This document shows, one piece after another, positions 23,583 to 63,009 of a DNA stretch of 64,000 nucleotides. Each line of letters opens with the position of its first letter. Within the stretch, counting starts at the first letter, position 1. The translations under genes and the position numbers were made by a program. This DNA comes from Promicromonospora iranensis. Lineage in GTDB: Bacteria > Actinomycetota > Actinomycetes > Actinomycetales > Cellulomonadaceae. The stretch lies in the NCBI RefSeq assembly GCF_028994805.1, contig NZ_JAJQQP010000003.1:157145-221144 (forward strand), in the 5' to 3' direction. Below the pieces are notes generated by a model that did no database searches, had not been told where the DNA came from, and saw only the letters and a program-made list of their open reading frames with translations.

Positions 23583-23599
23583 CCCCCGTCGCCCTGGGT

Positions 23600-23661
23600 G
23601 GTCGGCAGAACGTCAGGTGATCGGTAGTCCGAGCTGCCGACTACCTGACGTTCTGCCGACC
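23600..23661. repeat. 62-bp palindromic repeat, copy 1 (intergenic)
   Basis: The outer arms begin GGTCGGCAGAACGTCAGG and end in its complement; the right arm adds CGACTAC pairing with an inner GTAGTC. It aligns without gaps to the elements at 50053-50114 (minus strand) and 62904-62965. It lies between two convergent genes and probably works as a terminator. In the orientation shared by all copies it is flanked by T before and GC after. Confidence 0.8.
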
Positions 23662-23680
23662 GCCTGACGTTCTGCCGACC
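23661..23680. repeat. Partial tandem duplicate of the palindrome right arm
   Basis: CGCCTGACGTTCTGCCGACC repeats the right arm of the preceding palindrome and runs into the first base of the acyl-CoA dehydrogenase stop codon. It looks like a slipped or second, truncated copy. Confidence 0.7.
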
Positions 23681-49506: not shown

Positions 49507-51399
49507 TCAGCTGCTCTGTTCCTGGGCGGCGGACCACGTGTACTCCGGGTCGTGCGCTCGCAGGTGCTCGTGGGCGCCACGGGCGGTGACGGTGGCCGGG
49601 GCGTCGGGCGCGGCGAGGGCGTCGTGCCCCAGGAGCAGGACCTCGTCGGCGGCCGCCAGCGGGGTGAGGCGGTGCGTCGCCAGCAGCACCGCCCGGCCGG
49701 TCTCGCGCGCGTGGTCGGCAAGGGCACGCACCAGCGCGTCGGCCGTGCGGCCGTCCAGGTGCTCGGCCGGCTCGTCCACGAGCAGGACCCGGGCGGGCGA
49801 CAGGAGCGCACGAGCGACCAGGAGCCGACGGCGCTCGCCGCCCGAGACCGCCGCCGCGTCCGTGCCGACCACGGTGTCCAGCCCGTCGGGGAGCGCCGCG
49901 AGCCAGTCGCCCAGCCCCACGGCGTCGAGCGCGTCGCGAGCCTCGGCCGCCGTGACGTCCCCGCGCGCCACCCGCAGGTTCTCGACCACGGACGTGTCGA
50001 ACACATGCCCGTCCTCGGCGACGAACAGCCGCGCCTCCGGCGCACCCTGAGCGGTCGGCAGAAGGTCAGCTGATCGGTCGCTCGGAATGCCGACCTCCTG
50101 ACGTTCTGCCGACCATCCACTGACCTGTCCCGCCCGGGGTGGGATGAGGGCGGCCGCTGTCATCAGGAGTGTCGTCTTGCCGACGCCCGACGGGCCCGCC
50201 AGCGCGACGACCGAGCCCGGGCGCAGCGTGAGGGACACCCCCTCGACGACGGTCCGCGGCGGGCCCGCGCCCTCGGACCAGCCGGCGGCGATGTCGTCCA
50301 GTACCAGCAGCGCCTCGCCGTCCGCCTCGCCCTCCGCAGCGCCGTCCGCCTCTCTCTCCACCGAGGCGGCGGATGCCGGAGCCACGCGGGCGGGCGGTGC
50401 GCCCGGCACGGGGTCTGCGTCAGGGAGCAGCTCCACCAGCCGGTCCGCAGCCGCCCTCGACCGGTGCAGCTGGACCGCGGCGGCGGGGAGCCCGGCCGTC
50501 GCCTCGAACACGGCGAGCGGCGTCAGCACGATCACGGACAGCGCCTCCACGGACAGCGAGCCCGACAGCGTCGCCGGGATCCCCAGCGCTACCGACGCGA
50601 GCACCGCGAGCCCCTGGGCCAGCGCCCCCAGTGCGGCGGCCAGCCCGGAGGTGCGAGCGCCGTCGTCGGCGACGGCGGACAGGTGCGCATCGGCGGCGTC
50701 CAGGTCGGCCAGCCGCGCGCCGAACCGACCGGAGACGCGCAGCGGCGCCGATTCCTCCAGGATCTCCAGGGACAACGCCGTCACCTCCCCGCGAGCGGCG
50801 GCGCCCCGCGCCTCGGTCCGGGCAGCGGCCCGCGCCGCGAGCCACGGCGTCACCACCCCCGCGAGCACCAGGCACAGCGCCAGCGCCGCTCCCGCCGCCG
50901 GCAGCAGCACGCCCACCAGGATCACCGAGCCGAGCGAGGTCACGACCGCGACGCCCGCCGGCACGATCGAACGGACCACGACGTCGCCGACGTCGTCCAC
51001 GTCCTGCCCGATCCGGGCCAGCAGCTCCCCACGCCGCACCGTGACCGGACGGTCGTCGGCGGCGAGCCGGTCGTACAGGTTGGCACGGAGGGCCGCCATG
51101 CCACGGAGGGCGACGTCGTGCGAGGCGAGGCGCTCGCAGTAGCGGAGCACGCCGCGCCCGATCCCGAAGGCCCGTACCGCGACCACCGCCACGGAGAGGG
51201 TGAGCACCGGGGGCATCTGCGCGGCCCGGGCGACGAGCCAGGCGGCGACCGCCGCGAGCCCGATCGCGCACCCCAGGGCCAGGACGCCGAGCCCGATCGC
51301 CGCCGCCACCTTGGCCGGCCGGACCTCCAGCAGGGGCAGCACACGGCGCAGCGGGTCGGGGCGGCCGTCCCTGGTCAGGTGCTGTGTCGGGGTGGTCAT
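49507..51399 (-). CDS. cydC: Thiol reductant ABC exporter subunit CydC
   Basis: A 630-residue ABC half-transporter that with CydD exports cysteine/glutathione-type thiols needed for cytochrome bd assembly. Six helices fill residues 20-300. The ATPase has Walker A ALAGPSGVGKTTLLMTAAAL (about 398), signature SGGERRRLLVARALL (about 514) and VLLVDEPAEHLDGRTADALV. Residues 429-449 are encoded by a 62-bp palindromic repeat (copy 2), placed between Walker A and the FVAEDGHVF loop; the insert starts WSAERQEVG. An Ala/Glu-rich linker precedes the ATPase. The ATG at 51399 overlaps the cydD stop. Confidence 0.9.
   Translation of the reverse strand: MTTPTQHLTRDGRPDPLRRVLPLLEVRPAKVAAAIGLGVLALGCAIGLAAVAAWLVARAAQMPPVLTLSVAVVAVRAFGIGRGVLRYCERLASHDVALRGMAALRANLYDRLAADDRPVTVRRGELLARIGQDVDDVGDVVVRSIVPAGVAVVTSLGSVILVGVLLPAAGAALALCLVLAGVVTPWLAARAAARTEARGAAARGEVTALSLEILEESAPLRVSGRFGARLADLDAADAHLSAVADDGARTSGLAAALGALAQGLAVLASVALGIPATLSGSLSVEALSVIVLTPLAVFEATAGLPAAAVQLHRSRAAADRLVELLPDADPVPGAPPARVAPASAASVEREADGAAEGEADGEALLVLDDIAAGWSEGAGPPRTVVEGVSLTLRPGSVVALAGPSGVGKTTLLMTAAALIPPRAGQVSGWSAERQEVGIPSDRSADLLPTAQGAPEARLFVAEDGHVFDTSVVENLRVARGDVTAAEARDALDAVGLGDWLAALPDGLDTVVGTDAAAVSGGERRRLLVARALLSPARVLLVDEPAEHLDGRTADALVRALADHARETGRAVLLATHRLTPLAAADEVLLLGHDALAAPDAPATVTARGAHEHLRAHDPEYTWSAAQEQSS
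50053..50114 (-). repeat. 62-bp palindromic repeat, copy 2, inside cydC
   Basis: On the minus strand it begins GGTCGGCAGAACGTCAGG and ends CTTCTGCCGACC, with T before and GC after, exactly as for the other copies. It aligns without gaps to 23600-23661 and 62904-62965. It adds 21 in-frame codons to cydC with no stop. Confidence 0.88.
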
Positions 51400-53282
51400 G
51401 ATGCCTCCGGGTCTGCCGCGGAGCGGACGTCGATCACCTGGTCCGCGAGCCCGAGCAGCGACGCCCGGTGTGCGACGACGAGCACGGTCCGCCCGGCGTC
51501 GCGCCACGCACGTACGGTGTCGAGCACCGCCTGCTCGCCGCGTGCGTCGAGATGGGCCGTGGGCTCGTCGAGGATCACCAGCGGCCTGGTGGCGGCGTCG
51601 TCGAGGAGGGCGGACGTGAGCGCCACGCGCTGGCGCTGCCCCACGGACAGCCCCACGCCGCCGAGCCCGACGCGTGTGTCCCAGCCGTCGGGCAGCGCGC
51701 CGACGACGGCGTCGAGCCCGGTCAGGCGCGCCGCCTCGGCGAGCTCCGGGTCGCGCACGCGCGACGCGCCATCCAGCACGACGTCGCGCAGCCGCCCTGG
51801 TGCGAGCGACGGGCGCTGCGGAACCCAGGTGAGGCCCGCCCACCAGGCCTCCAGCTCGTCGGCCGACAGATCGGCGAGGTCACGGAGCACACCGCCGGGT
51901 GCGAGCAGCCCGACCCGTCCCGCATCCGGCGCCAGCAGCCCGAGAACCACCAGCACGGCCGTCGACTTGCCCGACCCGCTCGGTCCCCGGAGCGCGACGA
52001 CCCGCCCGGCGCCGGCCGCGCCGGACCCGAGCGGGATCCGCGCCGACAGCCCGGCGGGAGCGACGACCCCTCGTCCGGGAGCCCGCACGGAGATCCCGTC
52101 CAGCACGAGCTCCCCGCCGGCCGTACCCAGCCCAGCCGTACCCAGCCCAGCCGTACCCAGCCCAGCCGTACCCAGCCCAGCCGTACCCAGCCCAGCCGCA
52201 CCCTCCGACCGGGCGGCACCGGCCGGCCCGATGAGCGCGAGAGCCCGGGACGCAGCCGCGACCCCGTCGACGGACGCGTGGAACTCCGCCCCGACCCGCC
52301 GCAGCGGCAGGTACACCTCGGGGGCCAGCACGAGCACGGCGATCGCCGGCTGCAGCTCCATGGCGCCCTCGACGAGCCGCAGCCCCACGCCGACGGCGAC
52401 GATCGCCACCGACAGCGTCGTGAGCAGCTCGAGCACCATCGAGGAGAGGAACGCGATCCGCAGCGTCCCCATGGTTGCCTTGCGGGAGGCGTCACCGAGC
52501 GCCCGCACACGTTCCCCGGGGCCGAACGACCGCCCGAAGGCACGGAGGGTCGGCAGGCCGGCGACGAGGTCGAGCACCTGGGTGCCGAGCCGCTCCACGG
52601 TGGCGAGCCGCCGCTCCGACGCCCCGGCCGTCAGCCGCCCGACCAGCACCATGAACACGGGTACGAGCGGCAGCGTGACGACCAGGATCACCGCCGTGAC
52701 CCAGTCCAGGCCGAGCACCACGACCACCAGGGCGGGCGTGACCAGCGCCGTCAGCACCAGCTGCGGTACGTACCTCACGAGGTACGGCTCGAGCGCGTCG
52801 AGACCGCGCGTCGCGAGGGTCGCCACCTCGGCCTCCGGGCTGGCACCGTGTCCGGTGCCCGACGCCGGAGCACCGAGCCCGCCGTCCGCCGTCGTGCGGA
52901 CGTCCGCCGTCGTGCCGCCGTCCGCGGCGGTGAGGCCGACCGGGGCGGGTGCGCTGGCCCGGGGCCCGCGCAGTGCCCACGACTCGACCACCGCGTGGCG
53001 GAGCTCGGCGATCGTCCGCGCGGCGGCGCGCAGGGCGTAACGCTCCTGCGCCCACGCGACACCGGCCCGCCCGGCGACCACGAGCGCCAGCCCGGCGAGG
53101 TACCACGTCGCGGCCGACCGGGGGAGGTCATCCCCGAGCACCACCGGCGCGAGCAGCGCCGCGATGAGCAGCGCCTGCGCGACGATCAGCCCGGCCGCGA
53201 CCACGCCCAGCCCGACCGTCAGCGCCACGTACCAGCGCGCCGCGCTGACCTGCTGCAGCAGGCGGGGGTCGAGGGGTCTCAT
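51396..53282 (-). CDS. cydD: Thiol reductant ABC exporter subunit CydD
   Basis: A 628-residue ABC half-transporter forming a heterodimer with CydC. Six helices occupy about residues 20-320 (LTVGLGVVAAGLIVAQALLI, LVLTALVTPALVVVVLGLDW, VTLPLVPVFMVLVGRLT). The ATPase has RGPSGSGKSTAVLVVLGLL (about 430), VGLSVGQRQRVALTSALLDD as signature and PLVILDEPTAHLDARGEQAV. Between the two domains lies a five-fold Gly-Leu-Gly-Thr-Ala repeat (about 364-388) encoded by a 15-bp minisatellite. The gene starts 34 bp after cydB, and its stop overlaps cydC. Confidence 0.92.
   Translation of the reverse strand: MRPLDPRLLQQVSAARWYVALTVGLGVVAAGLIVAQALLIAALLAPVVLGDDLPRSAATWYLAGLALVVAGRAGVAWAQERYALRAAARTIAELRHAVVESWALRGPRASAPAPVGLTAADGGTTADVRTTADGGLGAPASGTGHGASPEAEVATLATRGLDALEPYLVRYVPQLVLTALVTPALVVVVLGLDWVTAVILVVTLPLVPVFMVLVGRLTAGASERRLATVERLGTQVLDLVAGLPTLRAFGRSFGPGERVRALGDASRKATMGTLRIAFLSSMVLELLTTLSVAIVAVGVGLRLVEGAMELQPAIAVLVLAPEVYLPLRRVGAEFHASVDGVAAASRALALIGPAGAARSEGAAGLGTAGLGTAGLGTAGLGTAGLGTAGGELVLDGISVRAPGRGVVAPAGLSARIPLGSGAAGAGRVVALRGPSGSGKSTAVLVVLGLLAPDAGRVGLLAPGGVLRDLADLSADELEAWWAGLTWVPQRPSLAPGRLRDVVLDGASRVRDPELAEAARLTGLDAVVGALPDGWDTRVGLGGVGLSVGQRQRVALTSALLDDAATRPLVILDEPTAHLDARGEQAVLDTVRAWRDAGRTVLVVAHRASLLGLADQVIDVRSAADPEAS
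52120..52194 (-). repeat. 15-bp x 5 perfect minisatellite in cydD
   Basis: The unit GCCGTACCCAGCCCA occurs five times without change from 52120 to 52194, then a partial GCCG. On the coding strand it reads Gly-Leu-Gly-Thr-Ala. It sits in the linker between membrane and ATPase domains, where length change would be tolerated. Confidence 0.92.
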
Positions 53283-62193: not shown

Positions 62194-62886
62194 ATGAAAG
62201 ACGGCCTGGGCGCTGGGCGCCTCGAAGTGATCGCCGGTCCGATGTTCGCGGGCAAGTCCGAGGAGCTGCTGCGCCGGGTGCGCCGCGCCCGCATCGCCCG
62301 GCGCGGCGTGCTGGTGGTGAGCCATGCGCTGGACGCCCGCAGCGGTCCCGGCAGGGTGAGCTCGCACTCGGGGCTGGGCGTGCCCTCGCACACGGTGTCG
62401 GACGCCGCGGACATCCTCGCGCTGGTCGCGGCCCGCACCGGACCGGGCGCGGGACCCGGCTCCGGACCCGGCACCGGGCCCGGCGGGGGAGCTCGAGACG
62501 CCGACCGGGAGGACGCGGCGGAGATCGAGCTCGTCGCGATCGACGAGGCGCAGTTCTTCGGCGCCGGCCTGGTCCCTGTGGCGGCGGACCTCGCACGCCG
62601 CGGGCTCGTCGTGGTGGTGGCCGGGCTGTCGGTCACGTTCGACGGGCAGCCCTTCTCGCCCCTGCCGGAGCTGATGGCGCTCGCCGAGTCGGTCGAGAAG
62701 CTCACCGCCGTGTGCTCCGTGTGCGGCGCGGACGCCGCGTTCCACGTGCGGGTGGCGGGGGCGCCACCCGTGTCCGGCGCCGGCCCGACGGACCCTGGCG
62801 ACGCGCTCGTACCGGTCGCCGCGCACGTCGGCGGCGAGGAGTCGTACGAGGCTCGCTGTCGCCGGCACGCCGACCTGGGCGGGTGA
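62194..62886 (+). CDS. tdk: Thymidine kinase
   Basis: A 230-residue type II thymidine kinase for deoxythymidine salvage. The P-loop GRLEVIAGPMFAGKSEELLR starts at about residue 8. DEAQFF (about 115) supplies the catalytic Glu region, and VVVAGLSVTFDGQPF is the lasso-side motif. CSVCGADAAFHVR with CRRH at the end gives part of the zinc site. A Gly-Pro insertion (GPGAGPGSGPGTGPGGG, about 83-99) between beta strands is unusual. No ribosome site is strong. Copy 3 of the 62-bp palindrome follows. Confidence 0.9.
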   Translation: MKDGLGAGRLEVIAGPMFAGKSEELLRRVRRARIARRGVLVVSHALDARSGPGRVSSHSGLGVPSHTVSDAADILALVAARTGPGAGPGSGPGTGPGGGARDADREDAAEIELVAIDEAQFFGAGLVPVAADLARRGLVVVVAGLSVTFDGQPFSPLPELMALAESVEKLTAVCSVCGADAAFHVRVAGAPPVSGAGPTDPGDALVPVAAHVGGEESYEARCRRHADLGG

Positions 62887-62903
62887 ACGGCAGTACGCCC
62901 GGT

Positions 62904-62965
62904 GGTCGGCAGAAAGTCAGGTGGTCGGCAGCCTGAGCTGCCGACCACCTGACGTCCTACCGACC
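62904..62965. repeat. 62-bp palindromic repeat, copy 3 (intergenic)
   Basis: Left arm GGTCGGCAGAAAGTCAGG and the right arm ending CGTCCTACCGACC pair over 28 bp with three mismatches around a 6-nt centre. It lies between convergent tdk and desaturase genes. T before and GC after, as in the other copies. Confidence 0.85.
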
Positions 62966-63009
62966 GCTCGCGCCGTGCGGCGCGGCAAGGTCTGCTGCTG
63001 CCCCGGAGG

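Follow-up and report, generated by a model that had tools for sequence, protein, structure and literature searches.

Rickettsia palindromic elements (RPEs) are described in three papers as occupying intergenic positions and also as lying, in frame, within conserved genes that are unrelated to one another (PMC2229807, PMC10969869, PMC6649704), and the last of these reports that their repeat identity is lost over time (PMC6649704). In-frame palindromic inserts are also named for Wolbachia and Methanocaldococcus (M. jannaschii) in the consulted part of PMC2996958. REPs, according to PMC3733652, are short hairpins found mostly between convergent or unidirectional open reading frames (ORFs), near 3' ends; they also occur within ORFs of several species, and as dimers or groups they code there for 20-30 residues. 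MITEs such as ERIC, Correia/NEMIS and QMITE1 are presented in excerpts of PMC2229807 and PMC10969869 as non-autonomous inverted repeats that are at times fused in frame. In the portions of the literature surveyed, accounts of coding palindromes deal chiefly with obligate intracellular bacteria, e.g. Rickettsia and Wolbachia, and no protein-coding palindrome is described in Actinobacteria.

In the soil actinobacterium Promicromonospora iranensis, a repeat designated element A behaves in the manner of an RPE and is placed as REPs are, but lacks defining features of both families. We consider it very probable that element A is a non-autonomous palindromic repeat, specific to the lineage of Promicromonospora and its relatives, that spread and was then translated in a few genes. 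The locus of departure is a stretch of 64 kb (the window), which contains cydC (49507-51399, minus strand; PF00005; best solved chains 8ipq and 8ipr, both CydC), encoding the ABC transporter of the CydDC system. The original prediction placed a palindromic element in frame inside this gene at 50053-50114, supplying residues 429-449, and re-reading of the sequence confirmed this placement. On the cydC strand the segment reads GGTCGGCAGAACGTCAGG...CTTCTGCCGACC and encodes residues 429-449 of the 630-residue CydC (WSAERQEVGIPSDRSADLLPT), with the complete 66-mer spanning 50051-50116 (minus strand). The gap-free alignment proposed with copies at 23600-23661 and 62904-62965 was also borne out. Both of the latter are intergenic and lie between convergent genes, as plus-strand 66-mers at 23598-23663 (15 and 16 nt from the called gene ends) and 62902-62967 (15 and 42 nt), where gene calls, here and below, come from an in-house codon-score caller trained on the window rather than from a published gene finder. 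The first is adjoined by a one-sided additional 19-nt arm at 23662-23680 (minus strand), and the second by a degenerate one at 62885-62903 (plus strand; 4 mismatches in 16). Arm matches in the window with at most 3 mismatches numbered 8 against 1.22 expected, a count reached in 0 of 100 shuffles; seven fall within the three elements and one, with 3 mismatches, elsewhere. All three window copies (four foldings) form strong hairpins of -37 to -53 kcal/mol, with z from -5.4 to -10.8.

A pattern search of the genome allowing up to 2 mismatches found the arm 32 times in forward and 32 times in reverse orientation, compared with 2 and 0 matches for the control. A covariance model built from 31 copies gave 90 two-strand matches, which were grouped into 45 places, five of them weak (<50 bits, best E 1.6e-9 to 6e-4). 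The resulting consensus is a 66-bp palindrome, GTGGTCGGCAGAACGTCAGG...CCTGACGTTCTGCCGACCAC, equal to 22 codons, in which pairing is possible over nearly the whole length. All but one of the 31 full copies have a 62-bp core, the remaining one a core of 63 bp, and the genome-wide consensus has GT before and AC after this core, the 66-mer ending in GTGG/CCAC. Two details of the original prediction did not survive this comparison: a T before and a GC after every copy is true of the three window copies and not genome-wide, and a 63-nt unit (T plus 62) is unsupported because the genome-wide consensus is a 66-bp palindrome with GT...AC ends, to which a 66-nt unit fits better. The 22-codon insertion unit is itself fitted rather than proven, since the host loops vary in length anyway.

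In seven of the 31 full copies a further 19-nt arm is attached to just one end, which gives the impression that the palindrome extends in steps of 19 nt, and the arm of element A amounts to about one and a half such units. A palindrome reaching generally into the flanks was rejected, as outside positions 2-3 (in the sister-genus genome G014 position 4 as well) show no more than a slight excess, with one copy extending to 82 nt. The 82-nt palindrome in G014 (L398, 1129-1210) is complementary save at its centre, and its letters differ from the rest of the family. An Rfam identity was also rejected; seven matches at four loci were all to microRNA families below gathering scores and were read as generic long hairpins.

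The distribution of the 45 places is strongly extragenic (42/45), with 21 in tandem gaps, 19 in convergent gaps, 2 in divergent gaps and 3 inside genes. Copies in tandem or convergent gaps overlap a stop codon or lie within 50 nt of one in 37 of 40 cases. Relative to the share of intergenic base pairs in the window, a small background of 26 gaps of at least 80 nt, there are more convergent sites than expected (p 2e-6) and fewer divergent ones (p 8e-8). Being mostly extragenic and near gene 3' ends, element A is placed as PMC3733652 describes for REPs. Membership in the REP/REPIN class mobilised by RAYT (an IS200/IS605-like tyrosine transposase) would account for the post-stop, convergent and tandem placement and for the occasional intragenic copies, both of which match REPs as portrayed in that excerpt (PMC3733652). 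It is nevertheless very unlikely and was rejected on the missing domain: none of the 13 genus genomes yielded PF01797 (Y1_Tnp), the Y1/RAYT domain, in a search that was positive in 5 of 14 control genomes. Unlike a REP, element A is a single 66-bp palindrome whose GTGG/CCAC ends carry no terminal GTAG or CGTC tag, CGTC occurring solely inside the arm.

Changes on both sides of the stem are more frequent than chance would give. In element A, two-sided changes were observed in 12 of 30 stem pairs, a count that takes in the three coding copies (shuffled mean 8.1; 4 of 500 shuffles as high), and the covariation score exceeded all 500 shuffles; in 26 copies of a diverged cousin from the sister genus, 18 of 30 pairs showed such changes (shuffled mean 7.5; 0 of 500 as high). 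As related copies can beat shuffles without any structure, slid controls matter here, and cells pairing in register amounted to 92% for element A and 96% for the cousin, whereas out of register, after sliding, the shares did not exceed 52% and 45%. Between P. iranensis and G012, its closest relative by CydC identity, two-sided stem changes numbered 10 in 16 orthologous intergenic copies, where independence of the changes would predict 2.5, and 7 of these 10 are Watson-Crick in both genomes; 46 changes were one-sided. Such two-sided changes, together with the strong 3'-end siting, are what would be seen if element A were mainly a regulatory hairpin (a terminator or an element at the mRNA end) that selection has retained and multiplied, the coding copies being accidental. 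We regard this explanation as doubtful, as selection alone leaves 45 homologous copies unexplained and the consensus has no U-tract. In the preferred reading, insertions would have been purged from most genes, leaving survivors 3' of genes or in a few tolerant loops, and the hairpin 3' of genes may be harmless or useful as a 3'-UTR hairpin or terminator-like structure.

The three intragenic copies of this genome reside in cydC, lutC (PF02589) and a PIG-L deacetylase gene (PF02585), and all three share one reading frame, with codons starting from the second base of the 66-mer. As the length of the consensus equals 22 codons and a stop closes just one of its three frames, a copy inside a gene would add a spacer of about 22 residues that has no known role in the protein, and the coding copies do appear to be translated in this way, as judged from open frames and codon statistics. 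Presence was scored across the genus with the P. iranensis genome itself included in each count. Among 12 readable cydC genes, 9 share the insert site with the insert in place (shortened in G003) and those of G004, G007 and G011 lack it, with G009 left out for having no usable gene (draft, 83% complete). For lutC the insert is present in 7 of 12 genes (G003 left out, as the gene was not found), and for PIG-L in 9 of 13, with no recognisable insert in G001, G003, G007 and G011. The lutC gene of G004, which lacks the insert, still keeps nine bases, CCGACCACC, that form the end of the element in other genomes and look like a deletion scar; in G007 and G011 an unrelated spacer takes the place of the insert. 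The PIG-L match in G002 (L126/L294/L298) is split over two frames in a draft genome. A further 59 relative loci were picked mostly for long open frames and were used for no frequency.

The site occupied in CydC tolerates changes of length, as the stretch from Walker A to AEDGH varies in length and is nearly missing from a solved structure. Within the genus it measures 42-70 residues with the insert and 24-26 without, and in ten loci measured in other genera it spans 24-38 residues; in the solved CydC chain 8ipq the insert stretch is nearly absent in the alignment. This agrees with the earlier expectation that CydC length is free to vary at this site. Conservation of residues 429-449 in distant CydC, which would have spoken against the original prediction, was not observed, with an insert in only 1 of 24 readable loci from other genera (57 genomes searched, 26 loci inspected), this being the sister-genus genome G038. 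The G038 gene (L315) has a frame change just after the insert, within a low-complexity GAGAGA stretch, from either a sequencing error or a broken gene. On a CydC tree, from which three of six outgroup rows and G007 had been dropped beforehand and in which inner support is weak, the loop presence label needs 2 changes, and a single early gain in cydC followed by losses is possible. In coding copies, the palindrome would decay and the element would sometimes be deleted, once with an apparent scar. Consistent with such decay, coding copies keep on average 24.6 of 29 pairs and intergenic copies 27.0 (25 coding copies from several genomes versus 27 intergenic copies of P. iranensis; p 1e-6, with orthologous copies not independent), and these weaker palindromes are in line with the loss of repeat identity reported for Rickettsia elements in the excerpt of PMC6649704.

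These observations support the RPE-like behaviour first proposed for the cydC segment, in that there are in-frame copies, filled and empty orthologues and many dispersed copies. Two points are modified: such behaviour is already published outside Rickettsia (PMC2996958, PMC3733652), and 42 of the 45 places lie outside genes. Like an RPE, element A is a palindromic, hairpin-forming dispersed repeat that lies in frame in unrelated conserved genes and is missing from some of their orthologues. It differs in length (62-66 bp versus 105-146 bp in the consulted text of PMC2229807), in its share of places within genes (3/45 versus nearly half of first-reported RPEs in ORFs, as given in the excerpt of PMC10969869), in sequence and in phylum, the host being Promicromonospora and not Rickettsia. 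The coding palindromes of Wolbachia and Methanocaldococcus jannaschii resemble it in being in frame, a likeness by description only, and belong to different lineages.

Measures of selection within the inserts bear on whether the encoded peptides are themselves of use. The pN/pS of the cydC insert is 1.18, compared with a median of 0.17 for equal-sized windows of the gene (0 of 476 as high); the corresponding values are 0.80 and 0.22 for lutC (0 of 158) and 1.00 and 0.27 for PIG-L (0 of 218), where the windows overlap and the sequences are related, such that window counts are not probabilities. The sets comprised 8 cydC, 7 lutC and 7 PIG-L sequences, excluding G002 PIG-L, G009 PIG-L and G003 cydC. 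Absolute pN as high as that of the insert was seen in 5 of 476 cydC windows, 66 of 158 lutC windows and 35 of 218 PIG-L windows, and is thus unexceptional in lutC and PIG-L. Synonymous change in the inserts is unusually low, with windows as low in 0 of 476, 0 of 158 and 6 of 218 cases, respectively. Judging from these alignments, the inserts look neutral as protein; low synonymous change is not predicted by strict neutrality, runs counter to it, and could reflect constraint acting on the DNA, insertion at a recent date or conversion between copies. It would also be expected, along with the recurrence of some residues, if the inserts were selected functional peptide segments of CydC, LutC and PIG-L with the DNA repeat secondary. 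That reading is scarcely credible given a pN/pS near 1 that exceeds every window of the same genes, the presence of the same peptide in unrelated proteins, and the several congeners without a recognisable insert, in addition to the near absence of the stretch from 8ipq. A translated repeat, tolerated in loops, is our preferred explanation.

The further copies that the original prediction anticipated in this genome and its relatives are many. With at most 1 mismatch, the arm matched in 10 of 12 other genus genomes, six of these many times; outside the genus it matched in 13 of 136 genomes, once each, compared with 9 of 136 for the reversed control pattern. A strict pattern searched against a collection of 84,980 species returned 78 stretches, all titled Promicromonospora. 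The more tolerant covariance model, run on 18 chosen genomes, matched in 6 of 6 genus genomes, from 4 two-strand matches (G007) to 63 (G006), and detected 97 and 29 matches in the sister-genus genomes G014 and G038, as well as 15 in G042, 8 in G058 and 8 in G029, with no match in 7 of the 18. Strict restriction of element A to the genus was ruled out and the claim widened because the model found, in the sister genus, a diverged, compensated cousin. In one genome, G014, this cousin lies in the cydC linker, a site other than that of the genus insert, as 22 codons in a frame differing from that of the genus cydC copy, and in frame in genes for a GH20 hexosaminidase (PF00728/PF02838) and a penicillin amidase (PF01804). 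The frame starting from the first base of the 66-mer, which has a TGA in the element A consensus and is open in the cousin as judged by eye, is used by two of these three cases.

A second palindrome family (B) of 42 bp, TGTCAGAC...GTCTGACA, unrelated to element A, occupies the CydC linker of several congeners, where it is in frame (L069 of G005; L064, L065 and L062), three times in G005 by eye. Family B matches with up to 3 mismatches number at least 200 per strand in G005 and about 100 in G006 and G010, and there is no match within 3 mismatches in the P. iranensis genome. The PIG-L genes of G001 and G008 (L291, L293) also contain, in frame, a weak resemblance to B, with 8 mismatches. As none of 22 checked places in G005 is coding on both sides, family B looks mainly intergenic.

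Movement of element A is inferred from its dispersal and from differences between species. In G012, 16 of 18 tested, previously aligned intergenic copies were matched in place and 2 were unmatched; most intergenic copies are old for this reason. The one candidate empty site in G012 still has element-like remnants, and no target-site duplication could be defined from it. Descent as a classical MITE, from a DD(E/D) insertion sequence sharing its terminal repeats, would explain dispersed inverted repeats of near-constant length (a 62-bp core in 30/31) that have no gene of their own, and element A resembles ERIC, Correia/NEMIS and QMITE1 in being a non-autonomous inverted repeat with in-frame cases. 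We judge this origin unlikely, as no target duplication was found at the one candidate empty site, the palindrome spans the full length, and neither a parent element nor any Pfam transposase domain was present among the nine genes between close copies (two places in P. iranensis and one in G005). Comparison of the 66-nt consensus with 72,556 plasmid and 50,697 phage records likewise gave nothing at E 1e-5, and a plasmid or phage origin by similarity was rejected on the same result. Under the preferred reading of a non-autonomous repeat, copies may have been spread by a cellular transposition activity, by one unseen or extinct, or by a hairpin-templated mechanism. A broader proposal, which we offer as a long shot, is that of a transposase-free class of repeats in which hairpin-templated synthesis (template switching) would copy and keep palindromes that serve as intergenic 3'-end hairpins and seed neutral loop peptides, with two families of independent sequence, A and B, settling in the same genes within one bacterial family.

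A high-GC actinobacterial lineage shows the behaviour known from these intracellular bacteria: in three genes, orthologous sites are occupied in some genomes and empty in others, and the neutral signature of the inserts can be measured. The origin, tolerance and loss of such inserts thereby become directly testable by comparison and in cultured strains. As a warning, lineage-specific 'indels' in CydC, LutC and PIG-L are here repeat insertions. Two observations concern neighbouring sequence. Two element A copies about 3 kb apart on contig C5 of G000 have a DUF222 protein (PF02720) between them (L044, 2320-4155), and the cydD coding region of the window contains a 15-nt tandem repeat at 52102-52203, which encodes GLGTA repeats in the linker that precedes the nucleotide-binding part.
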